This document shows positions 1,160 to 38,458 of a DNA stretch of 42,015 bases, in pieces (position 1 is the stretch's first letter; each line of letters begins with the position of its first letter). The position numbers and the translations under genes are program-made. The stretch is from a virus: the IMG/VR virus record IMGVR_UViG_3300020172_001675, positions 1 through 42,015 of that record; one strand, 5' to 3'. The notes under the pieces are model-generated. The model saw nothing but the letters and a program-made list of their open reading frames with translations. It did not search any database and was not told the DNA's origin.

Positions 1160-4100
1160 ATGTCTTACACCGTTGGCTTACCAGATGGACGAACTGTCGA
1201 GTTTCCTGACGATGTACCAAAAGACAAAGCTGCGGAGATAATTAAGGCGCAGTTTGGCTCTCGTCAAACACCAATTGGCGGTATTGCTGGCGCTTTAGGC
1301 ATGGGGGTCGAAGCCCCCATCTCCTCGGCACGCACAGGTATTGAGTCTTTGTTTGGCGGCAACGAAGCCGTTGAAGCCGGTCTTGGCCGCAAGGCAAAAC
1401 TGGGGGAGAAGTACGCTGAACAGCCTGGGTGGGAACAGGTCAAGAAGGCTTACGAAGAACGCGGCATCTTCCCCGCCATTGGCGAATACATTAGTCAAGT
1501 CCCTGCTGCATTGGCAGAGCAAGCCCCTCAGATGGCGGCAACCATTGGGACAGCGCGTGTGGGTGGTGCGTTTGGTGGTTTGCCTGGAGCAATTACTGGT
1601 GCAGTTGCCCCGTCTTTTACCCAGATGTATGGCGGTTTCTTAGAACGCCAAGCCGAAGAACAAAAAGCCCGGGGCGAACCTGTTGATGTCAACCGCCTAA
1701 CCGCTGGGTTGGCAGCAGTTCCTGCCGCTGCGTTGGATGTAGCGGCCACCTTCATCCCCTTGGGACGGTCGCTGGCAGGTGCCGTGTTTGGCAAAAACGT
1801 CGAACGCATGCTGGCCAAAGGCGCAGAAAAAGGCGCGGAGAACTTGGCCAAAGAAAGTTTGGTCAAGAGTTTGGCCAAGGGTACGGCGGTTGGTGCGTTG
1901 GCGGAAATCCCAACTGAAGTTGCACAGCAGATGATCGAACGTGCCCAGGCGGGGCTGTCTTTGGTTGACCAAGACGCCCTGGCTGAGTACGGGCAAACGG
2001 CGTTCCAAGTGTCCAAGCTGGCCCCGTTTGGTGCCGCAGGACGGTTGTACGAAAAAGGTGCGGCCAAAGACATCGTGGCCGAGCGCCAGCGCACAGAAGA
2101 AGCCACGGCCCTGGCGCAGCAAGAACAAGTCAAAGCGCAGCAAGAAGCCGAGCAAGCGGAGTACCGCAAGACGGACGAGTACCTGGACACCCTTGAGCAG
2201 CGCTACGGCACGTTCATTGCGCAGATGCAAACGCTGGACGACAAGCTTAAAGTCAAGCCCGCCAAAAGTGATCTGGTTGCACAGGCCGACAACGAAGCAG
2301 CGCGTACCGCACGCAAAGAATTGGTCAACTCGGATGAGACCCGCGCACTGGTAGATGAGTACCGCCAGCCTGGAGTACGTGAGCGCTTACAAGCGCGGCA
2401 AGAGCAGCGCCAGCTTGAACAGCAGACCCGTGAGGGGATGCAAACCAAGGGTGCACAAGCACAGTTGTTTGAAGCGCCTGAAGTTACGGACCAGTCCCCC
2501 CTGGCCCAGATTCAGGCTATAGCGCCGCGCATCCAAGAACTGGATAAACAGATTGCGGCTGCTCAAAAAACAGGCGACGTCCAGCAAATTGCCGAACTGG
2601 GTAACCAACGCAATCAGTTGCAAGAGTCCTTGGCCCCGTTGCTTCCCAGCCGTGCGGACTTGACCAACGCTCAGACAGGGTTGGAGCGCTTCTTAAAAGA
2701 CGCGCAAGACAAGATGGTCAACGCGACCAGCACACAAGACGTTGAGCGCCATGCCAACACGGTAATGCAGCACAAGGCGGCGTTGGAACAACTGCAAGCC
2801 TACGAGCCGTTTGTGGAAGCTGCTCCTGCGGGACTGGATAAAGACAAAGCCAAACTTAAAAAGCTGACGACAGACCTTGATGCTGCTCGCCAGTTGGGGG
2901 ACGCTGAACGCGTGCTGAAGCTGGCCCCGCAGATAAGAGACCTTGAGTCGCGTATCGGCCCTGAGTTGTTTACTGAAGGTGCTAAAAAGCAACGTGTCAC
3001 TGAGGCAGGTGAAGTTTCATACAAGCCCGAGCAAGCAGATTTGTTTGGCTTTGAGTATCCTGAAATTCCCGTGGACAAAGCACTTGCTGAAGCCATGGCG
3101 CAAGGGCGCGAACAATCTGCCGCTGGCCGCAAGAAAGTAGAAGCCGAGCTGCAAGCGTTTGAACGCATGACACAACGGCGTGGGCAAAGCCCTGCGCAGC
3201 AAGCACTGGCCCAGTTGCGCTTAGAAGAAGCAAAGAAACTGCTGTCTAATTTTGAAAAGAAAGAACAGGACTGGGCCAAGCTTGAAAAAGAACCTGACAA
3301 CCTGCGCTACCAAGATGACAGAGACAAACAGTACCGCGAACTCAGCAAACGTGTTAGAGAACTTGAAGCGGAGCTTGAGCAAGCGCCTGTTGATTTGTCA
3401 GTTGTTGCCGACGACAAAGAGTTCTTAAGCAACCTTGGAGCTATCAAGAACCGGGCACTGGGGATAACACCCCCCACGCCTGCTGGCGCGGTGCCTAAAA
3501 AAGAGTTTCCACAAAACGTGTATGGCCAGTCGCTACTCAAGATTCAAGAGCAACTGGACGCGGCCAAAGGGCAAAAGAAAGCCAAGATTCAAAAACTCTA
3601 CAACTACCTGACGGCAGGGTTGTCTGAGCCAGAGATTGCAAAGCTCGTTGCAGAAAGTACGCCCGAAGCCGCGCCGGGGATGCGCGTTAAGTCTGACGTA
3701 GCCAAAGAGTTGGAGACCGCCAGGGAATCGTTGGCGGACGTAGAAAAGCGCATAGCCATTGGTGAGAAGCGCCGCCGTGCTGCTCCCGAACAATCTTTGG
3801 AAGATTTGACGGACGAGCGCGTTGCCGATTTGTTGGATCGTTTGCTGCCCGGCGCTTTGAAAACTGGCGAAGGCAAAACCGAAATAGTAAGTTTTGAAAC
3901 TGCTGACGGTGAGCGTAGGAGAGTTGCAGCGCCCAAACCCACACTGCAAAAAGCGCAGAAAGCTAAAGAGCTTCCAATTGAGTCTGCACAGAGACTTGCG
4001 CAAGAACTACGGGACAACGAACGGCTGCTGGACTCCCTCAATGACCAGATCAAACGGGCAGGCAAACCTAAAGGCGAAAAACTCAACGCCCTGAATGCGC

Positions 4101-7100
4101 TTAAAGAACAGCGCAGTTTTCTTCAAAAAGAAAACGACAATTTGCGCAAAGCGTATGACCGCTTGGTGTCGTTGGAACAACCTGCGTACAAAGCCAAAGA
4201 AACAGAACCCACTACTGGCGATTTGTTTGGCCCGTTAGAAGCAGCGCGAAAAGAACTTGGCCCCCAAGAAAAGCGTTTGCAACAGTTGATGGACGAGCGC
4301 GACGCGTTGGTTGCGGAACAAAACCGCAGAAACCAAACCGCCAGCACTGCACAAATGCAGGAACTGTTGGATAAGTTTTCTAAGCTTCCTACCGGGCGGC
4401 TTAAAGAACTGGACAAGCAGATAGATGCTTTGGGCGAACAGCTTGGTCGCACTGAAGGGCGCGTGAATGAGCGTTACTCTGCGTTTGTCCAAGCACGCGA
4501 AGCCGAACGTGTGGCGGATGCTACCGAGGATTCAGTGCCATCACTGGAGCAGTTCATTGACCGTTTGCGCAAGCAAGGGTCTTTGATGACCGACGACCAG
4601 TTGCAAAACCTTTATTGGTCTAACCGGGCAAAGCGGGATGATGCGCTGAACACTACGGGCACTGATGTTCCTGACCAACGAACACTGCCGCAATTTGGTT
4701 TGGCGCAATACGTTAAAGCCAAGCAAGAAGTTCCAAAAGATGAGTTGGACGCGGCCCGTACCAAGTACGTGGATACGCAAAACCTGATTGAAAGCCTGCG
4801 CAAAGCGCTGTCTGCTACTGATAGCGATGGCGGCAAAGCGTTGCGTGACTTGGCTACAAAGCTGCAAACCACTTACGAAAACAAAACACAAGTTTTTGGC
4901 GGTGCTACCGCAGGGTTTAAGCAGGCTGCTGCGCCTTACACAAGCGATCGCCAACGGGCGTACTACGAGGCAATTCCAGCACAAGTCAAAAAGCTGCTCA
5001 ATATGGCCAACTTGGCCCAAGCGGCCAAGAAAACTACGGGCAACATCCCCAAGGATTTGCAAACACGGCTTGAGAAAGCACAAGAAGAACAGACCCGCGC
5101 CAAAGAAAAACTGGACGTTTTGGAAAAGCGTCAACGGGCATACGAGCAGCAACAAGACGTTATTACTGGCGCGGCTCCTGGCCAGCGCGAAGCAGACCGC
5201 TTGAAGGCGGGTGCGGGGTACCGCACAGCAGCGGGGAAGCTGCGCACAAAGCCCACGAAGAAAGCAAGCTGGGGTATTGAGTCCGTCCCCAAAACAAAAG
5301 AAGCCAAGCCTTCGGAAGTTGCTAAAGCTGCGGCAGAGATGGCTCGTGCAGCAAACTTGGTCAAGGCGGCGGAACGGCTGGCCAAACCCACAACCGTTAC
5401 GGTTGCTGACGACATTGACGAGTTGCGGCAGCAACTTGCCCGTGCGCAAAAAGCGGCTGCGGGGGATACGGACAAAGACAATCCCGCTGTAAGAGAACGC
5501 AATCGACTGGCGCAACAATTGGCGGACTCTATAAAACGCACGCCCTCTATTCCAAACGTTATTGTCGAGTCCCAAAAGAAACTGGACATGCTCAGCAGCG
5601 CCGTCAAAGCGCTGGACCCTGCGGCCAACGGCACGTTTGCTCCTGAAAAAACCATTGACGTTATGCTGGAGATGGAACGGCTGCAAGCTGAACTGGGCGA
5701 GTATGTTTACCGGGGTGGTAAATTAACCGAGCAGCAGCTTTCTGGCGCAGCGGCAGCAGAGGCAACGGCCAAGCTCATTCAGACAAAAGGAGCAGACACA
5801 CCTGCTGCTTTGGCTAGAACAGCCAAGGACTATGAGTTGGCGGTGAACCGGGTTGATTCCCAGCTTACAGACCTGCGCAAACAACTGGACAAAATCAAAG
5901 CTGAGTTTGAAACGGTTGCCAAAAACGAAACAACGGTTGACGGCGAAACCGCAAGAAAAGCCCCAGTGGTTGTTGAGGCAAAACTTGCGGAGCTTATTGA
6001 AAAGGCTACGCCTGTAGATGCTGCGCACACCAAAGCGGTGGCGCTGTACAAAGTGGCTCGTCGTGATTTGCTCATGTTCCAGTATGAAATGGGCAAAGGG
6101 GTGCGCCAGCAGTACGCAGATGCCGTGGCCGCGCTACAGGCGGAAACTGAGCGCCAAGCAAAAGACCCTGCGTTGGCAGCGGTTGCAAAACGTAACGAAT
6201 CGAATGCTGCTGTGTTGGCACAACTGCAAGATCGGCTGGCCAAATCACAAGTTGCTTTGGAAAAAGCAAGGGCCAAAGAACGCGCTACCCCTGCGCCAGA
6301 CAATCGGACTGCCGAACAAAAAGCCGACGACGAACGTCAAGATCGTTTAGAACAGCTTTTGAAAGGCCCGTCAGCAGAGTTGGCCGCGTTGCCCGGCACG
6401 CGCATTGAAGTGGACACAACGGGCCAGTTGGCACAAGCTGTACAAAACAACGCCAAGCGCATGCTTGGTTTGTCACAAGCTGCGTTGGAAAAAGCCATTG
6501 CCAAAAACGACGTTGCCGCAGTGCAAAAAGCAACTGCGGATGTTCAGCGCTATGAAAGAGAACTTGCCCAGGCAATGCCTGCGGGTGAGCGCGTTACAAC
6601 TAAGGTGGGCGAAGGTGCTCCAAGCACAGCACCAAGCACGCAGCCCGTTGCGGAAGGCACACGACTTGGTGCACGCAGGGTTGGTCCGCTTGTTCGACAG
6701 GCCCAAAGACCGCCAGGACAGATGCTTACGGGTTCTGGGCTGGATGTTAAGCAGGGAAGCCAGAATCCGCCAAGGCAGGCTGGGGCTGTCCGACTGCGCA
6801 GCTATGACTTGTCTCCTGAAGCGGCCAACGCAATCAGTCTGGCTACGCTGAACAAGCAAGTGAAAGCCGCAGAAGGCGACCGCAAAGCCGAGTTGCAAGA
6901 GCAGTATAAGCTGCAAACTGAGGGGCTTACTAAAGAGCAAGTTGCGGAGCGGCTTGCAGAAGGCAAGCGTTTGATTGGCAGCGACGAGTCTATGGCGTTA
7001 ATTGCACAGCGCGAGAACCTGCGCCAAGCTAATGCTGATTTGAACAAAGCCCGCACCGAACTCAACGCAGCAGAAACCGCTGCGGAGAAAAGCGGGGTTA

Positions 7101-10100
7101 AAGACAGCCCGGCTGTGATGGTGGCGCAAGATGCGTTTGATCAGGCAAGCGACGCCATAGAGATGTTGGAGAAGCGCATCTCTCGCATGCGGGAAGCTGA
7201 GCAAGCCAGCAAACAAGCACGCCGCACAGGCGCAACGGCGGAGCAAGAAGCCGACAGCGCGGTTGAAGAAGACGTAGATAAAAACGCGCCAGTTACGCGC
7301 TCACAAAAAGCCGTTGGCGATTTCTACTTTGACGAAGGCGATGTGTCTCCTACCCAGTACAAGACTGTGGCTGGGACGCGGTTGTCTGACCAAGCCATTG
7401 AAGAGATCAATGACGGCAGTTTGATCTACGCGTTGAACGATGTGGCCAAGAACGGTGCAACGCCATTACTGCGTGAGAACGCAGCCAAGGTAGCGCAGTT
7501 TGTTCGCCAGACCAAGGTTCGCGTTGTCAGCCGCATCACCATTGAGGGCAAGCAGTACCCGGCGGCGTATGAGGCGTCTACCAACACAATACTGTTAACT
7601 CAGGATGGCATGACACAAGAAGACCTTGTGCACGAAGCAACCCACGCCGCCACCATGCGCGTGATTGAGATGCCTGAGAAAGACCTGACGCCCATGCAGC
7701 GCCAAGCCAAGCGCGAACTGGAGGCGATGCTCAAAGCCATCAAACGCGACAAGAACTTTGAAGGTGAGTACGCAACCGCAGACCTGAAGGAGTTTGTGTC
7801 CGAAGCGCAGTCTAACGACGACCTGCGCACAAAGATGGAGCAAAAGCCTTGGTTCCGTGGCAACATGTTGGTGCGTGCAATACGGCGTTTCTTGAACCTA
7901 ATTGGCTTTGATACGCAAGAGTTGATGACAGCACGGGCGCAAGAATTGATTGAAACCATCTACATGCCCTCGCGTTCAATCCAGGGTGTTGGCAGAAGCG
8001 CTGCGGCTGCACGACCAACATCCGCCATTGTTGGCTACGACCCAACAACCACGGCCAAGATTAAAGGTAACTTTTACGGGCTGGCTGGTCGGGTACAGCT
8101 TGTTGACAGGCTTGCCGCAGCGGACGCTGCCATCGTGGCCGCAGAAGGCGCAGACAAATTAACTTCTGTTGAAGCGTTCCAGGCGCAGTACTTCATGCGC
8201 ATGGCAGACAAAGTGACCCAGGCGGCGGGGCAGTTCGTTACTAGCGGCCCGGTGCGCATCGTGGCGGACAAGCGCACTACCGGGACGGAGTACCGCTATG
8301 AGTCTGTTGAGGGGGCCAACCTGCTTCGTGTGAGCGAACACCTGGAGCAAGCCACTAAAGCCAGCGGGCGCAGTGCGGACGACATTGAGCGCATGTTCAC
8401 CGTGATAAGCGCAGGTGCAAGAGCCGAGGCTATTCCCAACGGCTGGATTCGTTTGAACACTGGTGATGCTAAAAAAGCCAAGGCTGAGTACGATGAGGAC
8501 AAGGCGTACTTGAACGCCAACCCCAAGGTCAAGCAGTACATGGATGCGGCATCAGCGGAGTACCGCCAGTACAACGCAGGTCTTTTGGACTTTGCCGCGC
8601 AATGTGATTTCCTGACGCCTGAAGAAGCTACTCGTTTGAAGCGCGTGCCCTATGCTCCGTACTACCGTATTGAAGACGGCGTGGTCAAGTTGTTTGTAGA
8701 AGACGAGCGCCCCATCAGGATTGGCAACATCAAGGACAACCCAGACTTGCAGCGCATGATTGGGGACAACAAAAAGATACTGCCGATTCTTACCAGTGCT
8801 GTGCAGAACACGTACATGCTGACCCGTGCCGCCTTGGACAACAAGGCCGCATACGAGACATCCAACGCCATGTACAAAGCGGGGTTTGCTTCTAAGTATG
8901 GCCCAGGCCGAGGCCCCGACGGCACCGACACAGTGCACTTCAAGGTCGAGGGTAAGCCCTACTTTGCAACAATTGATTCGGATACGTTTGGTATTCCAGC
9001 GCACTTAATTGTCAAGGGCATGGAGGGCATCAAGACTACGCTGCCACAGCTCGTGCAGATGTTGGGCGTGCCTGCTGACATCTTGCGCAAGTTCATTACC
9101 CGCTCCCCCGCATACGCTGTGCGGCAAATTATTCGAGACCCTATCAACGCGGCTTTGCTGTCGGGTACTGATGGCGTGCCTGTGCTCAACGCAATTCGGC
9201 AGTTGGCCAAGATGCGCAATGGGCAGAACACGACCCAAGACGAACTCATGCGCGGTCTGGTTGTCAGCAGCAACGTCTACACGGGCAACGAGAAAGACAT
9301 GGAGAAGTTCTTGCAGGACATCCAGTCTGGCAAGGGCAAGTGGACAAAAATGATGGGGGTGATTGACAGCGCGGCTTTGCAGGCGGACGTTGCCACCAGA
9401 GCGCTGGTGTATGAGTCGGCCTTGAAGCGGGGTTTGTCTAAAGCCCAGGCGCAGTTTGTGGCAATGGAGTCCCAGAATTTTGGGCGCAGGGGGTTGTCGC
9501 CCAGCATGCAAATGTTGTCCACAATGGTTCCGTTCTTCAACGCGCAGATTCAAGGCTTGGATGTGCTGTACCGCACCCTGCGCGGCAAAATGCCGTTTGC
9601 CCAGCAGATGGAAATTCAACGCAAGCTGAAGGCCCGTGGGATGATGCTGATGGCTGGCGCTATGGCCTACGCCATCATGATGCAAGACGATGAAGCCTAC
9701 AAGCTGGCTACGCCCGAACAGCGCTACGGCAACTTCTTCGTGTACATCCCAGGCGTAAAAGACCCGCTGCGAATCCCCATTCCCTACGAGATTGGCGTGC
9801 TGTTCATGGCTATTCCCCAGGCCATAGTGGACGTAGCCATCCGCGACACAAAGGCGTCGGAAGCAATCAAGGGTATTGGCAAGCTGTTGTGGCAGTCCGC
9901 GCCTGGGGTTGTGCCTGTGGGTGCAAAGCCTTGGCTGGAAGCTTTCTACGGGCAGACCGCGTTTGGGCCAATAGAAAACCAACGCGAGAAAATGCTTGCG
10001 GCGGGGGAGCGTTATCGCCCAGGCACTACCGAAGTGGCCAAGGCTTTGGGGTCGTTTACGGGGGTTGTGGGTGTGTCGCCGCTGATGTTGGAGCACTTTG

Positions 10101-10564
10101 TAAAGAGCTACACCAGCATGCTGGGGATTTCCGCGTTGCACATGCTTGACCCTGTGTTTGCAACGGGAGCGGGGGGCGAGAAGGCATCTATCCCCGCAAG
10201 CAAGCAGCCGTTTGTTGGCGGCTTGTTCCACTCAGCCGAAGGCCGGTTCTTGATTGACCGCGCTTACGGACGCATGGATGAGATTGTGCAGGCGTCAAAC
10301 ACCTACGAAGGCCTGATGAACAAAGGCCAGAGAGCCGAAGCGCGGGCGTTCGCCCAACGCCAGAGCAATCTGATAGCTATGAAAGACGAGGCGGGGGCGT
10401 TCAGGCAAGAGATGGGGGAGCTGTTCTCAGAAGAACGCGCCATCCGCGACAACCCCCGGTTGACTACGGCTCAGAAGGACGAGCGCTTGGATCGCTTGAA
10501 GCGCTTTGAGAACAAGATTGCGGAGCGGTTTTATAAACTATCCGAAAGAACCACACGCCAGTAA
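1160..10564 (+). CDS. Giant polyvalent virion protein with zincin motif
   Basis: This is a 3134-residue protein. The N-terminus (about 1-35) is a small domain of the form SYTVGLPDGRTVEFPDD. Residues about 95-290 hold Ala/Gly-rich hydrophobic segments that could be membrane-active. Residues about 300-2050 are mostly charged coiled coil. An HEATH site (HExxH, residues 2158-2162) marks a metallopeptidase-like domain. The last ~700 residues resemble large polyvalent protein C-termini and include a hydrophobic helix near 2825. Such proteins are known in phages and conjugative elements and are thought to enter the host with the DNA. AAGGA lies about 8 nt before the ATG. Ejection and protease activity are inferred. 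It ends convergent to the minus-strand replication genes. Confidence 0.85.
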   Translation: MSYTVGLPDGRTVEFPDDVPKDKAAEIIKAQFGSRQTPIGGIAGALGMGVEAPISSARTGIESLFGGNEAVEAGLGRKAKLGEKYAEQPGWEQVKKAYEERGIFPAIGEYISQVPAALAEQAPQMAATIGTARVGGAFGGLPGAITGAVAPSFTQMYGGFLERQAEEQKARGEPVDVNRLTAGLAAVPAAALDVAATFIPLGRSLAGAVFGKNVERMLAKGAEKGAENLAKESLVKSLAKGTAVGALAEIPTEVAQQMIERAQAGLSLVDQDALAEYGQTAFQVSKLAPFGAAGRLYEKGAAKDIVAERQRTEEATALAQQEQVKAQQEAEQAEYRKTDEYLDTLEQRYGTFIAQMQTLDDKLKVKPAKSDLVAQADNEAARTARKELVNSDETRALVDEYRQPGVRERLQARQEQRQLEQQTREGMQTKGAQAQLFEAPEVTDQSPLAQIQAIAPRIQELDKQIAAAQKTGDVQQIAELGNQRNQLQESLAPLLPSRADLTNAQTGLERFLKDAQDKMVNATSTQDVERHANTVMQHKAALEQLQAYEPFVEAAPAGLDKDKAKLKKLTTDLDAARQLGDAERVLKLAPQIRDLESRIGPELFTEGAKKQRVTEAGEVSYKPEQADLFGFEYPEIPVDKALAEAMAQGREQSAAGRKKVEAELQAFERMTQRRGQSPAQQALAQLRLEEAKKLLSNFEKKEQDWAKLEKEPDNLRYQDDRDKQYRELSKRVRELEAELEQAPVDLSVVADDKEFLSNLGAIKNRALGITPPTPAGAVPKKEFPQNVYGQSLLKIQEQLDAAKGQKKAKIQKLYNYLTAGLSEPEIAKLVAESTPEAAPGMRVKSDVAKELETARESLADVEKRIAIGEKRRRAAPEQSLEDLTDERVADLLDRLLPGALKTGEGKTEIVSFETADGERRRVAAPKPTLQKAQKAKELPIESAQRLAQELRDNERLLDSLNDQIKRAGKPKGEKLNALNALKEQRSFLQKENDNLRKAYDRLVSLEQPAYKAKETEPTTGDLFGPLEAARKELGPQEKRLQQLMDERDALVAEQNRRNQTASTAQMQELLDKFSKLPTGRLKELDKQIDALGEQLGRTEGRVNERYSAFVQAREAERVADATEDSVPSLEQFIDRLRKQGSLMTDDQLQNLYWSNRAKRDDALNTTGTDVPDQRTLPQFGLAQYVKAKQEVPKDELDAARTKYVDTQNLIESLRKALSATDSDGGKALRDLATKLQTTYENKTQVFGGATAGFKQAAAPYTSDRQRAYYEAIPAQVKKLLNMANLAQAAKKTTGNIPKDLQTRLEKAQEEQTRAKEKLDVLEKRQRAYEQQQDVITGAAPGQREADRLKAGAGYRTAAGKLRTKPTKKASWGIESVPKTKEAKPSEVAKAAAEMARAANLVKAAERLAKPTTVTVADDIDELRQQLARAQKAAAGDTDKDNPAVRERNRLAQQLADSIKRTPSIPNVIVESQKKLDMLSSAVKALDPAANGTFAPEKTIDVMLEMERLQAELGEYVYRGGKLTEQQLSGAAAAEATAKLIQTKGADTPAALARTAKDYELAVNRVDSQLTDLRKQLDKIKAEFETVAKNETTVDGETARKAPVVVEAKLAELIEKATPVDAAHTKAVALYKVARRDLLMFQYEMGKGVRQQYADAVAALQAETERQAKDPALAAVAKRNESNAAVLAQLQDRLAKSQVALEKARAKERATPAPDNRTAEQKADDERQDRLEQLLKGPSAELAALPGTRIEVDTTGQLAQAVQNNAKRMLGLSQAALEKAIAKNDVAAVQKATADVQRYERELAQAMPAGERVTTKVGEGAPSTAPSTQPVAEGTRLGARRVGPLVRQAQRPPGQMLTGSGLDVKQGSQNPPRQAGAVRLRSYDLSPEAANAISLATLNKQVKAAEGDRKAELQEQYKLQTEGLTKEQVAERLAEGKRLIGSDESMALIAQRENLRQANADLNKARTELNAAETAAEKSGVKDSPAVMVAQDAFDQASDAIEMLEKRISRMREAEQASKQARRTGATAEQEADSAVEEDVDKNAPVTRSQKAVGDFYFDEGDVSPTQYKTVAGTRLSDQAIEEINDGSLIYALNDVAKNGATPLLRENAAKVAQFVRQTKVRVVSRITIEGKQYPAAYEASTNTILLTQDGMTQEDLVHEATHAATMRVIEMPEKDLTPMQRQAKRELEAMLKAIKRDKNFEGEYATADLKEFVSEAQSNDDLRTKMEQKPWFRGNMLVRAIRRFLNLIGFDTQELMTARAQELIETIYMPSRSIQGVGRSAAAARPTSAIVGYDPTTTAKIKGNFYGLAGRVQLVDRLAAADAAIVAAEGADKLTSVEAFQAQYFMRMADKVTQAAGQFVTSGPVRIVADKRTTGTEYRYESVEGANLLRVSEHLEQATKASGRSADDIERMFTVISAGARAEAIPNGWIRLNTGDAKKAKAEYDEDKAYLNANPKVKQYMDAASAEYRQYNAGLLDFAAQCDFLTPEEATRLKRVPYAPYYRIEDGVVKLFVEDERPIRIGNIKDNPDLQRMIGDNKKILPILTSAVQNTYMLTRAALDNKAAYETSNAMYKAGFASKYGPGRGPDGTDTVHFKVEGKPYFATIDSDTFGIPAHLIVKGMEGIKTTLPQLVQMLGVPADILRKFITRSPAYAVRQIIRDPINAALLSGTDGVPVLNAIRQLAKMRNGQNTTQDELMRGLVVSSNVYTGNEKDMEKFLQDIQSGKGKWTKMMGVIDSAALQADVATRALVYESALKRGLSKAQAQFVAMESQNFGRRGLSPSMQMLSTMVPFFNAQIQGLDVLYRTLRGKMPFAQQMEIQRKLKARGMMLMAGAMAYAIMMQDDEAYKLATPEQRYGNFFVYIPGVKDPLRIPIPYEIGVLFMAIPQAIVDVAIRDTKASEAIKGIGKLLWQSAPGVVPVGAKPWLEAFYGQTAFGPIENQREKMLAAGERYRPGTTEVAKALGSFTGVVGVSPLMLEHFVKSYTSMLGISALHMLDPVFATGAGGEKASIPASKQPFVGGLFHSAEGRFLIDRAYGRMDEIVQASNTYEGLMNKGQRAEARAFAQRQSNLIAMKDEAGAFRQEMGELFSEERAIRDNPRLTTAQKDERLDRLKRFENKIAERFYKLSERTTRQ

Positions 10565-25449: not shown

Positions 25450-25742
25450 GTGTTGGACAAGTTAGTGTGTGCTTCGCGCTCTGCCTTTGCATCGTCAATC
25501 ATGTGCTTGGCAATCTCAAACCAGTTCACATCGGACAGGAACGCCAGCGCATAGTCTTTCATGAGTCCATCAGGCATGTCGCCGACAACAAACTCTTCGG
25601 CCATGTCTTTGTAGTAGATCGAGGCTTCGTAAACATCGTCAGGCCGTGCATCAATCCAGTAGCGGCCCACCCCATCAAATATCTCCAGGTTCACACGCCA
25701 TGTGGCGTAGTTCGTCCAGCCGTTGTAGGTCTTGTCAGTCAT
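25446..25742 (-). CDS. Conserved phage protein of NGWTNY-TW type, 98 aa
   Basis: 98 residues opening TDKTYNGWTNYATWRVNLEI. This NGWTNY.TW start is widespread in phage proteins that often act as early genes; no function has been shown to my knowledge. The rest is helical and acidic (YYKDMAEEFVVGDMPDG). GAGGAG lies 7 nt upstream. Its stop overlaps the -35 box of the next promoter. Confidence 0.78.
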   Translation of the reverse strand: MTDKTYNGWTNYATWRVNLEIFDGVGRYWIDARPDDVYEASIYYKDMAEEFVVGDMPDGLMKDYALAFLSDVNWFEIAKHMIDDAKAEREAHTNLSNT

Positions 25743-25878
25743 CTTTCATCTCCTCTAGTAAAGCCGCCTGATCTTCGGGATAAAGATCATCGAACGGCAC
25801 GAAATGGTTCTCTTGGCAGCAAGAGTAGCTGTCCCCCTTGGGGGTCACGCAGTACACGCAATAAAGTTCTTCAAACAT
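25735..25878 (-). CDS. Small Cys-containing phage protein, 47 aa
   Basis: 47 residues: MFEELYCVYCVTPKGDSYSC then CQENHFVPFDDLYPEDQAAL. A CxxC and a CC pair could bind zinc. AAGGAAC is 6 nt upstream, just after the terminator of the amidotransferase gene. It overlaps the next gene by 8 nt. Function unknown. Confidence 0.68.
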   Translation of the reverse strand: MFEELYCVYCVTPKGDSYSCCQENHFVPFDDLYPEDQAALLEEMKDD

Positions 25879-25894: not shown

Positions 25895-25921
25895 TAAAAG
25901 CCCCCAGGGAATTCCCTGGGG
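25895..25921 (-). terminator. Intrinsic terminator after the amidotransferase gene
   Basis: On the minus strand CCCCAGGG-AATT-CCCTGGGG (25902-25921, perfect 8-bp stem) is followed by GCTTTT. It begins 14 nt after the stop at 25935 and closes the amidoligase-amidotransferase unit. The U-tract is short, so some read-through into the next two genes is likely. Confidence 0.75.
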
Positions 25922-25934
25922 ACACTGACACCCG

Positions 25935-27050
25935 TCAGGCAAGCAACGCGGGCAGGGGTTGGCTGCGCACATGGCTCCAGTTGAGGTAGTAGCAGAGCAC
26001 CTCGGCAATCGTACTGGCAGACTTACCATTGCGCACGAAGTCGTGCATCGCGGCAACATCGGAGTCGAGCGCGGCGCGGTAGATGTCTTGCTCATACGAG
26101 GACAGGTCTTGCTCACGCGTGAATGTCGTGATGCTTGGCACCCAGTTGTCGAAGATGGTGTCAATGGTAGCCATGGGCATAGCCTCCAGGCACGCCTCGA
26201 CCGCCTCCACATCCGCGTCAAACAGATACTCACCGAGCAGCTCGATGTCTTCCAGGGTCATGGACTCAGCGTCAATCATCTCATCCTCGACCCACTCGTA
26301 GTCGTCCTCGTTGAACTTGGGGTCATGCGCTGACACAGACGCCTTGCGTGGTGCGACCTCGCCCATGTACATATCGTCACAGAGGTCGTCGCTGCCCCAG
26401 CTACCATACTTGCCGTAACTGGCGTAGCTGGTGTACCGACTGGCGTGCTTGCTGGACGAGTAGTAGTTGGCTATCAGGCGTGTGGGTTTCCATGCGTAGG
26501 TATTGCTGAACCATAGCCCATCGTGCTCAACGCCTTGGTCGTAGTTGACATGGGACATACGCCCCTCGCCATCCATGAACACAAAGCGGTTGTCACCGAT
26601 GTAGTCAGCAACCATGGTCAAGAACGCCTCGTTGTGGATAAGCGCAGGGTGGTCATGCACAGGATCAGCAAGGTAGGTCTTGATGAAGTGCCAAGTGTCG
26701 GACTTGGAGGTGTCAGCGGCATTGCCTGTCTTCAACACGCCGTTGTGCATCATGGCAACATAGCCCGGCACAACATCGTAGGGATGGCAGTTGATGAGGT
26801 CGGTGTCGCCGTGTGTAGTCCAGCGGAAGTGGATTGCCAACTCGCGGTCATCGTTGGGTAGCTTGGTGATGAACGCAGTCGCATCGGCTTGACTCTTGGG
26901 CAGAACCTTAACGACCTTCAACCCCTTGGTTGTGGAGTACATGATGCCGATACCATCGGGGTTCGATGAGTAGATGTCAGCGATGAGACCATTGGTGTCG
27001 AGCAGGGTCGAGCGGATTTTGGCAGACTTGCCAGTGATGATAAGACACAT
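25935..27050 (-). CDS. Class II glutamine amidotransferase-like protein
   Basis: The start MCLIITGK at 27050 puts Cys2 at the N-terminus after Met removal, as required for an Ntn-type nucleophile. The longer frame upstream is a shadow. Family motifs: PDGIGIMY (31-38), HFRWTTHGDT (74-83), NCHPY (87-91) and HNGVL (102-106). The domain (about 1-190) should release ammonia from glutamine. A ~180-residue C-terminal part with a Tyr/Ser-rich linker and an acidic helical region is unassigned. It lies 25 nt after the amidoligase gene. Known gene neighbourhoods pair such proteins with Amidoligase_2 enzymes. Substrate unknown. Confidence 0.87.
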   Translation of the reverse strand: MCLIITGKSAKIRSTLLDTNGLIADIYSSNPDGIGIMYSTTKGLKVVKVLPKSQADATAFITKLPNDDRELAIHFRWTTHGDTDLINCHPYDVVPGYVAMMHNGVLKTGNAADTSKSDTWHFIKTYLADPVHDHPALIHNEAFLTMVADYIGDNRFVFMDGEGRMSHVNYDQGVEHDGLWFSNTYAWKPTRLIANYYSSSKHASRYTSYASYGKYGSWGSDDLCDDMYMGEVAPRKASVSAHDPKFNEDDYEWVEDEMIDAESMTLEDIELLGEYLFDADVEAVEACLEAMPMATIDTIFDNWVPSITTFTREQDLSSYEQDIYRAALDSDVAAMHDFVRNGKSASTIAEVLCYYLNWSHVRSQPLPALLA

Positions 27051-27075
27051 AGTGATTTTTCCTTGATTGTTATGA

Positions 27076-28947
27076 TTAAACGCGGTCAACACAAGCCAAC
27101 TCAGCGGGCGCTGAATTCTTGGCGGTAGCACGGCGGCGAACGCCATACCAGTCGGCAAGGTTGGGATAGGTGTTGTTGGTGGTACGCAACCACTTGATGA
27201 AGCTTGAGTAGTCAAGGTCGCGGTAGCTTGCGACACGGCAGAACATGACAGCAGCATGGGTGAACTCGATCTGCGCCAACAAACGCTCACGCTTGAGAGA
27301 CGCGCGGAAGATGCGAAGCTCGATGGTGTTGAAGCTGCGCTCACCGACATACTGCACACCCAGGCGGTCAGCCTCGGAACGCTTCAAGCAGGTCGTGTTG
27401 ACCATGCGGTAGCGGCGTGTGCTCTTGCCATTGAGGGCGTGCTTGGGGTTGTCGAGGATGCTTTGATCTTCTGCCGCGCAGTACTCACGCGCTTGCTTGT
27501 CCACTGTGGGATGACGACCGGCAATACGGCGTATGAAGTCCACATTGGTGTTGGAGTTGATGAGCATGAGAAACTTGCCCAGGGTCATCGCAGTGAATGC
27601 ACGCGAGTCGATGTGCACATGCATACCGCACGATTCCTTGTCCCAGGCAGAGAAGTTTGATGGGATACCCTCACTGAACCAACTACCAAAGCACTTGATG
27701 TGCTCGTCTAGTTTGCGTGGTGCAGTCACGACCTCGAAGCCGCCGTTGGGCAGCGAACCATCGGACTTGCATACGCAGTAGTCCTCGCCCAGTGCTTCAC
27801 GCACAGACTCGACTGCGCTGCCCACAGACCCGTCTGTTGCCATCTCAAGCTCGATGCCCATGAGGAAGTCACCGAATGGAGACGGCGTGAAGCTGATGTC
27901 CTTGGCTACATAGTCTGTGACCACAGTCATGTAGCCCATGAGACGATTGGGTTCTTCGCGTGGGTAGCCGTCATCATCGTCGAAATCGCTCTCTGCCAAC
28001 TCTTCGTCGCGGTCGTATGAGTAGTACGCTTGCTCACGCTCAGACCAATGTACATCGTCTTGCAGCCAGTACTCTTCCTGGTCTTCGACCCATACTGCGC
28101 GGTCATCGCGGCACGACTCACACCATGTACGCATACGCCCATTCTCACGCACCGAAACTGTCTCGTGCGCGTGCACCACATGGTCGCAGGATGTTTGTTC
28201 CAGGTTGGTCATGACACCTGCATTACTCAGCGCATCTTCAATGGCAGGGAACGCGGCTACCATGCGTTCCATGTGGTAGCCCGTGGCAGTGTCTGAGAAC
28301 CAGTCATCGAAATCGCCCGCATCCTGGTCTTTGATTGCTTCGCGCACCTTAGCGCCCAACTGCTTGAAGGTGTTACGCATGTGCAGAAATTGCCACTGGT
28401 CAACGCGCGCCCCTTTGTAGGACACCAAATTGGTCGTTGGTGAGTCTAGCCCCAGCTTGATGCGTGCATCTCGCTTGACACGAATCATGCTGCCGCGAAT
28501 GAGACCAGACTTGCGCCCATACATCGGACTGTCGAGGATGTCGAGAAGCCTGTAGTAAAGCGCATACCCCTCGAGCTGCAACCACGCACGCTCAGCTTGT
28601 GTCAGCGGTGCCACGCTGTAGTCCGCCTCGTCAAACGCAATGCCCCACACGTTGTTGTCGATGATGGACTGCATAGCCTCGCCCAAGCTGGTGTTGGCTA
28701 TGGCTGACTGCACATCAGAGTGAGAGCGATTGAGGTAGGAAGTCTCAATGCCCGCCGCACGCGTTGCGGCGACAAAGCAGGTGTTCGGGTTGCGGAACAG
28801 ATGGGGGTTGGCTAAGCCCTTGACTGCAAGCCACACGCGAGTGTTGAAGGCTTCGACCACGAACGCGTGTCGGCGTTTGTGTGTGGCGTTGCCCGTGTCG
28901 GCGGTGTTGCGCTCAACGAAAGTAAATTCTGCGTGATAAATTCTCAT
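27076..28947 (-). CDS. Amidoligase_2-type COOH-NH2 ligase
   Basis: The protein has 623 residues. The C-terminal catalytic part shows the glutamine-synthetase-like amidoligase motifs in order: GIELEMA (364-370), KSDGSLPNGGFEVVTAP (394-410), CGMHVHID (440-447) and NTIELRIFR (540-548). Acid residues in these motifs should hold Mg-ATP. The N-terminal ~245 residues are unassigned. C254/H256/H259 and CESC (276-279) form a probable zinc site, then an acidic stretch near 320-326. Such ligases join a carboxyl to an amine, possibly a peptide or modified-protein bond. The target is unknown. Start: GGAGAA 6 nt upstream. Confidence 0.9.
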   Translation of the reverse strand: MRIYHAEFTFVERNTADTGNATHKRRHAFVVEAFNTRVWLAVKGLANPHLFRNPNTCFVAATRAAGIETSYLNRSHSDVQSAIANTSLGEAMQSIIDNNVWGIAFDEADYSVAPLTQAERAWLQLEGYALYYRLLDILDSPMYGRKSGLIRGSMIRVKRDARIKLGLDSPTTNLVSYKGARVDQWQFLHMRNTFKQLGAKVREAIKDQDAGDFDDWFSDTATGYHMERMVAAFPAIEDALSNAGVMTNLEQTSCDHVVHAHETVSVRENGRMRTWCESCRDDRAVWVEDQEEYWLQDDVHWSEREQAYYSYDRDEELAESDFDDDDGYPREEPNRLMGYMTVVTDYVAKDISFTPSPFGDFLMGIELEMATDGSVGSAVESVREALGEDYCVCKSDGSLPNGGFEVVTAPRKLDEHIKCFGSWFSEGIPSNFSAWDKESCGMHVHIDSRAFTAMTLGKFLMLINSNTNVDFIRRIAGRHPTVDKQAREYCAAEDQSILDNPKHALNGKSTRRYRMVNTTCLKRSEADRLGVQYVGERSFNTIELRIFRASLKRERLLAQIEFTHAAVMFCRVASYRDLDYSSFIKWLRTTNNTYPNLADWYGVRRRATAKNSAPAELACVDRV

Positions 28948-29020: not shown

Positions 29021-29224
29021 TTACTCCAATTGCGTCTCAATTTCATGCAAGATACACATTGCTATGTCTTGCTGGTTCAGCACCAGTGCGCCCTGCACCT
29101 GGATAACCAAGTCGAGCAAGCGTGCACGCTCAGCGTCAGCCAGGGCTGACTGCGCTTCTTCTCTGTCGATCAGGTCTTGGTACGCGTCCATGACCGCGTA
29201 GTGGTGTGCGTCAAGCCCCTTCAT
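29021..29224 (-). CDS. Hypothetical phage protein, 67 aa
   Basis: 67 residues, all helical: DAHHYAVMDAYQDLIDREEA then ERARLLDLVIQVQGALVLNQ. ATGA overlap with the DUF2591-like gene. No motif. Probably cotranslated with it. Function unknown. Confidence 0.7.
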   Translation of the reverse strand: MKGLDAHHYAVMDAYQDLIDREEAQSALADAERARLLDLVIQVQGALVLNQQDIAMCILHEIETQLE

Positions 29225-29559
29225 GCTGTTAACTCCTCTGGTATTTCAACTTCATCGCCCATCTGGGATGCCACATAGCACCGCATGGCGGCGATCAGGG
29301 GTGTGGGGCCGTCTAACGTATAACTCTCGTCCTCTATGCGGTCGTCGTACTTGTGCGCTGTCCAACCGTCCCACCTTGGGTGAATCAGCGTTATGACTTC
29401 CCTCTCAATGATCGGACCGCCTTGTGCCCAGTCGGTTGATGGTGAGTAGTCTTCGGGCCAAACAATTTGTCGGTCGAGTATGCGTAGCTTCTCGCCCATG
29501 ATGTACCCTACCGCCCAGTCAAGGGCGGTGCCTGTTAGGTCACTTGTCTTGATCTTCAT
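29221..29559 (-). CDS. DUF2591-like phage protein, 112 aa
   Basis: 112 residues. It begins MKIKTSDLTGTALDWAVG and has YSPSTDWAQGGPIIEREVI and GPTPLIAAMRCYVASQMGDE. These are the signature segments of the DUF2591 phage family, which has no tested function. ATGA overlap with the 86-aa gene upstream and with the 67-aa gene downstream. Confidence 0.82.
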   Translation of the reverse strand: MKIKTSDLTGTALDWAVGYIMGEKLRILDRQIVWPEDYSPSTDWAQGGPIIEREVITLIHPRWDGWTAHKYDDRIEDESYTLDGPTPLIAAMRCYVASQMGDEVEIPEELTA

Positions 29560-33144: not shown

Positions 33145-33796
33145 CCCCATCGCAGGTTCAAGGGCTTATGCGCGTATGCTGGATCATTTAATAGATTTCT
33201 CTCCCGAGGTGAGTGCTCACCAAGGGAAAAGCGTTGCCGTAAACAAACTGTCCCCGGCAGATTTGGTGGACGCCAAAATAAAAACCACAGATTGGCTCAA
33301 AGGTTTGGGCGCGGTTGATACCGACGAAGCGGTAGCACAGGCAGAGATTGACGCCGCCAGGGCGTCTTTCAACGGAATGATTACTGCGGCTCCCGCAGAG
33401 ATCACCCACAAACATCTGGCACAGATAAAAACCCCGGCGGCTGTGCAGCACTTGGTTGGAATGTTGTCTGCATACGACTGGGAGTTTGTGGAACGCGCCA
33501 AAGAGATTCGTGGCTACACCGTGGCCAAACTGCTGGAAGAAGCAGAGAACCCCAACGCCAACATCCGCCTGAAGGCGCTTGGTCTTTTGGGAAAAATCAC
33601 GGAAGTGGGCCTGTTCACCGACAAGATTGAGGTCAAGAAGGAGTCTCTGAGCGACGACGAGATCGACCAGAAGATCAAAGACAAGCTCAACAGGTTCATG
33701 GGCGTCACAGACGCTGCCGTGATCGAGGATATAGAAGTTAGCACTCACACACCAGCGGCTGATGAAGCTCAACGACCTGACGCTCTCCCCAACTGA
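33134..33796 (+). CDS. terS: Terminase small subunit
   Basis: 220 residues from GTG 33134. An N-terminal basic/helical region, a central helical part (AEIDAARASFNGMITAAPAE) and a C-terminal helix KKESLSDDEIDQKIKDKLNR. It is assigned from position directly upstream of, and overlapping by 35 nt, the large terminase gene, plus size and helical content typical of these DNA-recognition oligomers. An alternative start is ATG 33176 (MLDHLIDFSPEV). Neither has a good ribosome site, which may mean coupling to the 24-aa ORF. Confidence 0.75.
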   Translation: MYISPIAGSRAYARMLDHLIDFSPEVSAHQGKSVAVNKLSPADLVDAKIKTTDWLKGLGAVDTDEAVAQAEIDAARASFNGMITAAPAEITHKHLAQIKTPAAVQHLVGMLSAYDWEFVERAKEIRGYTVAKLLEEAENPNANIRLKALGLLGKITEVGLFTDKIEVKKESLSDDEIDQKIKDKLNRFMGVTDAAVIEDIEVSTHTPAADEAQRPDALPN

Positions 33797-35297
33797 GATC
33801 GCCGCCATTCAAAAGGCGCTCCCAACGCTCTCTCTCAAGGAGAAGATGGAGCTGTTTGACATGTTGGAGGAGCGCGAGAAGCGCTACGGGGTGGCAGCAG
33901 CACGCCAGGACATGATTTCCTTTGCCAAACGGGTCTATCCGGGGTTCAAAGTGGGCCCACACCACAGGAAACTGGCCAAAATCTTCACCGATGTGATTGA
34001 AGGGCGCAAAAACCGGGTCATCATCAACATTGCACCCCGTATGGGCAAGTCAGAATTCAGTTCTTACCTGTTCCCAGCCTACTTTCTAGGTAAATACCCT
34101 AATAAGAAGATCATCATGGGCACGCACACCGCGTCTTTGTCGGAAGACTTTGGCCGCAAGGTGCGCAATCTGATCGACAGTGAGGACTATCGTGAGCTTT
34201 TTCCACAAACACTTGTTGCCGATGACCAGAAAGCTGCTGGAAAGTGGGGTACTAGCGCTGGGGGTCAGTATTACGCTGCTGGTGTCGGCGGTGCTCTGGC
34301 TGGTCGGGGTGCCGATCTGTTTGTTGTGGACGATCCTCACTCGGAACAAGACGTCAAAGCCAACAGTCGTCTAGCGTTTGACACGGCGTGGAGTTGGTTC
34401 CAGACTGGCCCACTCCAGCGCTTGATGCCAGGGGGCGGAATCATTGTGGTGATGACCCGCTGGGGCAAGCTGGACCTGACCGGGCGGCTGATCGACTACC
34501 AGACCAAGAACCCCAACGCCCCGTCCTGGGAGATCGTGGAGTTGCCTGCCATACTGAACGAAGGCACGGACGACGAGAAGTCCCTGTGGCCCGAGCAGTG
34601 GCCCCTGGCAGCGTTGAAGTCGGCCAAGGCGTCGATCGACCCGCAGTACTGGAACGCCCAGTACATGCAGCAGCCCACCAGCGACAACGCGGCCATCATC
34701 TCCAGAAAGAATTGGCGCATCTGGGAGGCGGAGGAGCCGCCCACTTGTGAGTACATCATCCAGTCCTGGGACACGGCCCACGAGACCAAGAGCACGTCTG
34801 ACTACAGCGCCTGCACGACCTGGGGGGTGTTCTACAACGAGGAAGAGAACGATGCCGCGCAGGTCATACTGCTCGATGCGTTCAAGGACAGGATGCCGTT
34901 CCCAGAACTCAAAGCCGTGGCGTTCAAGCACTGGAAAGAGTGGGACCCCGATGCGTTCATCGTGGAAAAGAAAGCCGCTGGCGGGCCGCTCATCCAAGAG
35001 CTGCGCCACATGGGCATCCCGGTGCAGGAGTTCAGCCCCTCCAGGGGCAACGACAAAATTGTGCGTCTGAACGCCGTTGCAGACTTGTTCACATCGGGTA
35101 CAGTCTGGGCACCAGACACACGCTGGGCCAGGGAGGTCATCGAGGAGGTGGCGTCCTTCCCCAATGGCGAGAACGATGACTACGTGGACACGACCTCCCA
35201 GGCGTTGCTGCGGTTCAGACAGGGCGGGTTCATCCGCTTGGACACCGACGAGAAAGACGACCCCATTTACTTCCGCCGTAAGGCGGCGTATTACTAA
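33762..35297 (+). CDS. terL: Terminase large subunit
   Basis: 511 residues. ATPase: Walker A APRMGKS (91-97), Walker B LFVVDDPH (186-193), coupling motif VMTRWGKLDL (230-239). RNase H-like nuclease: SWDTAHE (Asp337), FIVEKKAAGG (Glu402) and NDDYVDTTSQAL (Asp472/Asp476). It cuts concatemers and drives DNA into the prohead through the portal encoded next. Start MKLNDLTLS overlaps the small subunit gene. Confidence 0.97.
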   Translation: MKLNDLTLSPTEIAAIQKALPTLSLKEKMELFDMLEEREKRYGVAAARQDMISFAKRVYPGFKVGPHHRKLAKIFTDVIEGRKNRVIINIAPRMGKSEFSSYLFPAYFLGKYPNKKIIMGTHTASLSEDFGRKVRNLIDSEDYRELFPQTLVADDQKAAGKWGTSAGGQYYAAGVGGALAGRGADLFVVDDPHSEQDVKANSRLAFDTAWSWFQTGPLQRLMPGGGIIVVMTRWGKLDLTGRLIDYQTKNPNAPSWEIVELPAILNEGTDDEKSLWPEQWPLAALKSAKASIDPQYWNAQYMQQPTSDNAAIISRKNWRIWEAEEPPTCEYIIQSWDTAHETKSTSDYSACTTWGVFYNEEENDAAQVILLDAFKDRMPFPELKAVAFKHWKEWDPDAFIVEKKAAGGPLIQELRHMGIPVQEFSPSRGNDKIVRLNAVADLFTSGTVWAPDTRWAREVIEEVASFPNGENDDYVDTTSQALLRFRQGGFIRLDTDEKDDPIYFRRKAAYY

Positions 35298-37837: not shown

Positions 37838-38028
37838 TCCAAGATTTCGCACGCGTATTGCGCGAACAAATACGCACCGACATGAACAACTACGCAGATG
37901 ACTGCGCTGGTGGTGGGTGTCGCACTTTTGACGAGTACCAAAAACTTTGCGGGGTCATCCAGGGTCTGGCCATCGCAGAGCGTTACATCATTGACCTTGC
38001 AGAGAAAGTTGAAAAATCCGATGAGTGA
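37834..38028 (+). CDS. Small head-module protein, 64 aa
   Basis: 64 residues: MIQDFARVLREQIRTDMNNY then EYQKLCGVIQGLAIAERYII and a charged tail. Helical. ATGA overlap with the portal gene and 8-nt overlap with the GroES-like gene. A pattern seen between portal and scaffold genes in phages; no known job. Confidence 0.75.
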   Translation: MIQDFARVLREQIRTDMNNYADDCAGGGCRTFDEYQKLCGVIQGLAIAERYIIDLAEKVEKSDE

Positions 38029-38458
38029 ACTCGCACTTGAACCGGGGCAATTTGCCCTGCCTGAAGCAATCCAACCCGTCGATGCTCCGGCAAAAGACGC
38101 AAACAACGATGAGAAAGCCACCATGCTGCCAGAGCCAACAGGCTGGAAGCTGCTGTGTGCGGTGCCCGACATATCTGAAAAGATTGACGGCACGGAGCTT
38201 GATCTCGTGAAGGCATCGTCCGTCATGCGCCAAGAAGAACACGCCACAACTGTTCTGTTTGTGCTCAAGGTCGGACCTGACGCATACAAAGACACCTCCA
38301 AGTTCCCCGCAGGCGCGTGGTGCAAGGCAGGCGACTTTGTGCTGGTACGCACCTATTCTGGTACGCGCTTCAAGATTTTCGGTAAAGAGTTTCGCTTGAT
38401 TAACGACGATCAAGTCGATGCTGTTGTGCAAGACCCTCGCGGGTTAACCCGCGCTTGA
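38021..38458 (+). CDS. GroES-like co-chaperonin
   Basis: The start is at ATG 38021; the longer frame is a shadow. After a ~38-residue Ala/Pro-rich N-terminal tail, residues about 39-140 follow the Cpn10 layout: EPTGWKLLCAVPD, a mobile-loop-like stretch, VLKVGPDAYKD, WCKAGDFVLVRTYSG and DDQVDAVVQDP. Phage GroES analogues such as T4 gp31 and RB49 CocO let host GroEL fold the capsid protein. Here it sits between portal and scaffold, which fits. Distant homology, so confidence is moderate. Confidence 0.7.
   Translation: MSELALEPGQFALPEAIQPVDAPAKDANNDEKATMLPEPTGWKLLCAVPDISEKIDGTELDLVKASSVMRQEEHATTVLFVLKVGPDAYKDTSKFPAGAWCKAGDFVLVRTYSGTRFKIFGKEFRLINDDQVDAVVQDPRGLTRA

Follow-up and report, generated by a model that had tools for sequence, protein, structure and literature searches.

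The window analysed here comprises an entire linear viral record (42,015 bases), and the two genes under study lie within its replication (early or middle) gene block, as they do in the compared phages. A first-pass annotation had described a frame of 623 residues and one of 371 residues lying 25 nt apart, and these coordinates were confirmed exactly: the spacer spans positions 27051-27075 and the second frame runs from an ATG at 27050 to a stop at 25935 on the minus strand, a plausible ribosome-binding site being found ahead of each gene (Table 1). The motifs listed for the two products (GIELEM, CGMHVH and ELRIFR in the first; M-C2, RWTTHG and HNG in the second) are likewise present, and change little or not at all among 23 relatives. 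The terminator that had been placed at the end of the pair held up only in part; a strong 10-bp hairpin does exist, however it is followed by four U only and is absent from the list of the terminator scan, so that a terminator at 25900-25923 is plausible but weak.

Table 1. Features of the ligase-amidotransferase pair, in window coordinates
Feature	Position	Strand	Basis
Amidoligase_2-type ligase, first gene of the pair, 623 aa	27076-28947	minus	translation, PF12224 match, AF2 model
Ligase N-terminal region, residues 1-250; variable, apparently recombinant	28198-28947	minus	dN/dS, fourfold sites, length variation in ligase alignment
Zinc-finger-like segment, residues 254-279 (C254, H256, C276, C279)	28111-28188	minus	nearly invariant columns; hhalign
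Ligase catalytic domain, residues 361-605 (E366, E368, D396, S398, E405, H443, H445, E543, R545)	27133-27867	minus	invariant columns
Ribosome-binding-site-like AAGGA, 9 nt 5' of amidotransferase ATG	27060-27064	minus	read from sequence
Class II glutamine amidotransferase, second gene of the pair, 371 aa	25935-27050	minus	fold matches GlmS/PurF/EgtC, sequence matches GlmS/PurF
Amidotransferase catalytic domain, residues 1-190 (C2, R76, H80-G81, N103-G104, D118)	26481-27050	minus	invariant columns; dN/dS; pLDDT mostly >80
Probable flexible linker, low-confidence, residues 194-262	26265-26471	minus	pLDDT mostly <50
C-terminal helical region, residues 263-371	25938-26264	minus	pLDDT ~77-90 to residue 360; missing from divergent members
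10-bp hairpin, possible weak terminator (tail CUUUUAACC), 3' of amidotransferase stop	25900-25923	minus	fold z -2.55

Right after the hairpin lies a Cys-containing ORF of 47 residues (25735-25878, minus strand), near-identical in four close relatives and not in others, and a P22 NinX family protein (29221-29559, minus strand) is encoded upstream of the ligase. The terminase (33762-35297, plus strand) is 47-53% identical to those of HTVC023P, HTVC027P, DSL-LC04 and 023Pt_psg01; as these phages measure ~58-62 kb, the 42-kb record may be incomplete. Between the portal and major head genes, a protein of 186 residues (37898-38458, plus strand) shows a weak C-terminal GroES/Cpn10-like match below the Pfam cut-off. 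A protein of 3,134 residues (1160-10564, plus strand), for which no PHROGs match was found at E 0.001, carries at its C-terminus an LPD38 domain, known from large polyvalent proteins.

The ligase matches PF12224 (Amidoligase_2) over residues 437-565 with 23.5 bits, above the gathering score of 22, which bears out the family named in the first-pass annotation; two PHROGs families carry the name amidoligase. Searching solved structures with the ligase profile gave chance matches only at the level of sequence. The AF2 model (mean pLDDT 80.5) matches the solved folds of glutamine synthetase, the GCS2 protein 1tt4, PafA and Dop, with scores that are modest for a multi-domain protein (E 4e-4, low TM), and the viral structure matches are mostly phage proteins named amidoligase. 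On this model the ligase is assigned to the glutamine synthetase/GCS2/PafA superfamily fold. The conserved residues expected with a GS/GCS-like fold (ExE, DGS, HxH, ExR) form invariant alignment columns, and the same catalytic residues are kept in phages tf and phiEco32; as judged in sequence, the loss of metal or ATP residues that would have spoken against an active ligase is not seen across the relatives. A zinc-like segment had been placed at the N-terminus. The segment is present, with its three cysteines and one histidine, but it is internal, lying between a variable N-terminus of ~250 residues and the catalytic domain, and it is followed by an acidic stretch. An hhalign comparison places it against the LIM-like segment of the clostridial homologues, the LIM match itself being sub-threshold.

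The second protein is a class II glutamine amidotransferase which keeps Cys2, Arg76, THG, HNG and Asp118. Its score against the Pfam GATase_4 profile (18.3 bits) falls below the cut-off of 23, so no GATase_4/6/7 match above cut-off was obtained for this copy; however, fold and motifs fit the family, sequence matches to GlmS (weak) and PurF were found, and clostridial homologues score over the GATase cut-off. The AlphaFold model has a mean pLDDT of 77.3 and its Ntn fold matches GlmS, EgtC and PurF at E 1e-6 to 1e-3. EgtC, known from ergothioneine biosynthesis, is a match by fold and not by sequence, as a search with the amidotransferase did not find it up to E = 10. The glutamine-site residues M1-C2, R76, N103-G104 and D118 occupy invariant columns of the amidotransferase alignment.

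The two genes are strictly linked in this subfamily. Upstream sequence is available in 57 of 58 amidotransferase-centred viral contigs and the ligase is found there in 57/57; among 79 ligase-centred loci, a set which overlaps with the former, four stop at the gene itself, and in each of the 75 others the amidotransferase lies downstream. Unlinked occurrence in relatives, which would have counted against the pair as a unit, is thus not what the co-occurrence counts give. The order ligase then amidotransferase is constant across related viral contigs. Gaps are mostly 11-31 nt, with longer ones such as that of ~1 kb in locus L048, where an ORF (L048:5441-5980) resembles, as judged by eye, an HNH-type homing endonuclease; in phage UFV-P2 an HNH gene occurs at the same place between the two genes (PMC3890496). 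In 16 loci from cellular genomes the pair is kept in 13 of the 15 with room. The linkage is a trait of this ligase subfamily and not of PF12224 overall, since the weak relatives L171 and L173 from cellular genomes are without the amidotransferase and, in Clostridioides phage AR1086-1, the gene next to a more distant ligase is not an amidotransferase.

The pair was found in the marine OM43 phage MEP401, the spring-water podophage ctgrD200, many metagenomic phages, Burkholderiales prophage-like loci, clostridial MAGs, and a Rhizobiales contig that also has ParB-like and DUF4942 genes. At locus L167, a mobilizable element of clostridia, genes for a relaxase, a NikA-like protein and an integrase surround the pair, and at another locus (L158) a Lar restriction-alleviation domain lies near it. 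Divergent members, 21-28% identical, from OM43 phages, the podophage, prophage-like loci and the mobilizable element still have both genes. Neither enzyme shows a change at its catalytic residues among 23 homologues, at identities down to 21-28%. Besides the two enzymes, no family common to all 38 compared loci was found, and a third universal partner gene was accordingly rejected. A universal substrate peptide next door was rejected as well, the small downstream ORFs, such as that at 25735-25878, being lineage-specific only. The target is therefore probably not encoded next to the pair.

Both proteins are under purifying selection. Measured with four close relatives, dN/dS takes values of 0.04-0.16 for the amidotransferase domain, 0.14-0.23 for the ligase core and, higher, 0.37-0.50 for the ligase N-terminal region. 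Such constraint, together with linkage across divergent relatives, excludes a chance pairing. At fourfold-degenerate sites the N-terminal region is more diverged than the core whenever the window copy is one of the two compared (Fisher p 0.0003-0.03, the four tests being mutually non-independent), whereas this excess appears in 0/6 comparisons among the four other relatives. The pattern points to one event in the lineage of the window by which the N-terminal region was exchanged. That the first ~250 residues of the ligase evolve fast and look recombinant is new here. The suggestion that extra parts of both enzymes select the target gains some support for this N-terminus, which may take such a role.

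The module as such is already known, being carried by phages tf, UFV-P2 and phiEco32 and by OM43 phages. In tf and phiEco32 it includes genes for a COOH-NH2 ligase, an amidoligase, an amidotransferase, an ATP-grasp protein and an AIG2 protein. Searches for COOH-NH2 ligase (PF14395), AIG2 (PF06094) and ATP-grasp matched the positive controls tf and phiEco32 but nothing in the window or in any of ten related viral records; a full phiEco32-type module in the window was rejected on these grounds, with the reservation that the record may be incomplete. Nor was an AIG2/GGCT gene found beside the window ligase. The LUZ24-like phages tf and UFV-P2, along with phiEco32, share with the window the adjacency of an amidoligase followed by a class II amidotransferase (PMC3890496). 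In hhalign comparisons of the phiEco32/tf type with the window, the ligases align at E 3.7e-10 and the amidotransferases at 1.2e-4 (probability 55%). The ligases of phiEco32, tf and UFV-P2, however, are without the zinc-finger segment and long N-terminus.

The two-gene form was previously reported in the OM43 phages MEP401 and MEP402 (PMC10580990). In these and in Podoviridae sp. ctgrD200 the ligase is directly followed by the class II amidotransferase in the early region, the catalytic residues are those of the window and, as in the window, ATP-grasp, AIG2 and COOH-NH2 ligase were not detected; the proteins are 21-28% identical to those of the window and differ in having shorter, different N- and C-terminal extensions. 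The pair is a further member of this published module class, in its two-gene form without COOH-NH2 ligase, ATP-grasp and AIG2. Clostridial LIM-type cassettes (L161-L170) resemble it in that a zinc-finger segment and ligase are followed by an amidotransferase (hhalign E 1.2e-32). In these cassettes the two genes often overlap by one base, the ligase bears 2-3 finger repeats without the N-terminal region of ~250 residues, and the setting is a MAG or mobile element rather than a lytic phage. Amidoligase and AIG2/GGCT pairs of Tn6164 and Clostridium clostridioforme prophages also combine a PF12224 ligase with a small second enzyme on mobile elements (PMC3485107, PMC11318856), but there the partner is a gamma-glutamyl cyclotransferase and not an amidotransferase, and the ligase belongs to another subfamily.

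Both arrangements occur across a set of five clostridial genomes. All nine high-scoring canonical PF12224 ligases have an AIG2/GGCT gene within ~1.4 kb, whereas the low-scoring LIM-type ligases with room adjoin an amidotransferase and none has AIG2 nearby (9/9 against 0/9, Fisher p 4e-5, three of the LIM-type loci being recent copies). The split is seen in the genomes G003, G007 and G008. A partition this clean is new here, although Iyer et al. 2009 may already have reported it. Ammonia is thus not needed by the PF12224 family as a whole, since other members pair with AIG2/GGCT (PMC3485107). The Ruminococcus MAG G003 holds three copies of the two-gene cassette (L161, L162, L163) at ~90% DNA identity in different contexts, the stretch of 2.19 kb shared by L162/L163 and by L161/L163 being essentially the two genes alone, and the fourth copy of the ligase runs up to the edge of its contig.

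Linkage and catalytic residues together uphold the earlier description of an Amidoligase_2-type ligase and a class II amidotransferase as a conserved two-gene unit. The pair is real and conserved and almost certainly active, and its members almost certainly work together, an ATP-driven ligase and a glutamine-splitting partner altering an acid group on a target. More specifically, we give an even chance to a two-subunit glutamine-dependent amidoligase, expressed early or in the middle phase, that amidates a host carboxylate. Cys2 of the amidotransferase would release ammonia from glutamine, the GS/GCS2-fold ligase would activate a carboxylate with ATP as acyl phosphate, and joining of ammonia to this intermediate would give an amide; this chemistry is well supported, its class being read from what is known of the families and from the conserved residues. 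The most likely target would be a protein encoded by the host, or another carboxylate of the host, in whose choice the variable N-terminal region and zinc finger would help, and the modification would form part of host takeover or counter-defence. We infer the physical complex, ammonia as the nucleophile, the host target and the biological purpose. An ammonia-donor role agrees with the sequence search, in which the partner finds GlmS and PurF and not EgtC. A host-directed role fits the mobilizable element with its relaxase, NikA and integrase and the Lar domain in L158; these contexts and the LPD38 protein of the window would favour it over virion modification.

By its EgtC fold match the modelled partner could be a hydrolase, and the EgtC matches suggest a serious, though rather unlikely, rival which the first-pass annotation had not considered: the ligase may link a glutamate gamma-carboxyl to an amine of a target or metabolite in the manner of EgtA, the class II enzyme later hydrolysing the product like EgtC, with no ammonia donor. 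EgtA and EgtC bring a GCS2-fold ligase and a class II Ntn fold into one pathway in which EgtC hydrolyses a gamma-glutamyl amide, and with BtrJ/BtrG they exemplify the logic of adding and removing a gamma-glutamyl group. EgtC ranks with the best fold matches of the partner, and this relay is kept as a rival because the amidotransferase and AIG2/GGCT, which stand beside divergent and canonical clostridial ligases respectively, both handle gamma-glutamyl groups. However, the partner is GlmS/PurF-like in sequence (RWTTHG, HNG, SDT), and the two kinds of partner need not be equivalent, as tf and phiEco32 carry both. Quite unlikely, too, is amidation of the D-Glu or meso-DAP carboxylates of peptidoglycan precursors, which would alter the wall against competing phages or lysis. 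Amidotransferase-dependent wall amidation is carried out by LtsA/AsnB. It is also known for MurT/GatD (PMC3267633), the ATP-grasp protein of the larger tf module has weak D-Ala-D-Ala-ligase similarity, and a cell-wall and superinfection hypothesis for phiEco32 is already in the literature, credited to Iyer et al. 2009 in PMC10580990. Yet the ATP-grasp, AIG2 and COOH-NH2 ligase genes behind the wall link are those absent from the window and sampled relatives, and a zinc finger with a fast-evolving N-terminus would be better suited to binding a macromolecule than a wall precursor, which is conserved.

Modification of a virion protein or of phage DNA appears very improbable. The genes are phage-borne, and glutamine-dependent enzymes do occur in some phage DNA-modification pathways; against this, the pair sits in the replication and not the structural block, and the scanned proteins, which took in part of the small ORFs, gave no recognisable base-modification gene. 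The virion-protein target of the first-pass annotation is less supported also because the pair is carried, next to genes for relaxase and integrase, by a mobilizable element of clostridia. That the genes merely hitchhike or decay, kept by linkage only, is scarcely credible: split ligase frames (L014/L032) and an apparently shortened amidotransferase frame (L182) indicate decay of some copies, but both catalytic domains are under strong purifying selection and the pair recurs in unrelated elements. A bolder form of the host-directed reading, quite unlikely as a whole, would be a modular counter-defence modifier shared by phages and mobilizable elements, in which a conserved ligase/amidotransferase chassis inactivates or re-marks particular host proteins by amidating their side chains or gamma-glutamylating them, while the exchangeable N-terminus and zinc finger choose the target.

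The first-pass annotation had known of no tested phage target, and the literature searched likewise gave no experimental substrate test for this strictly linked pair with its wide distribution among phages and mobile elements. Although the pairing itself is already published, the two-gene form is a simpler experimental object than the phiEco32 and tf modules, offering two proteins, clear catalytic residues and a mass shift, and through it an old prediction becomes testable. With a host protein as target, the pair would be a case of post-translational amidation driven by a phage; with a gamma-glutamyl hydrolase as partner, it would represent a reversible tag that mobile elements carry.
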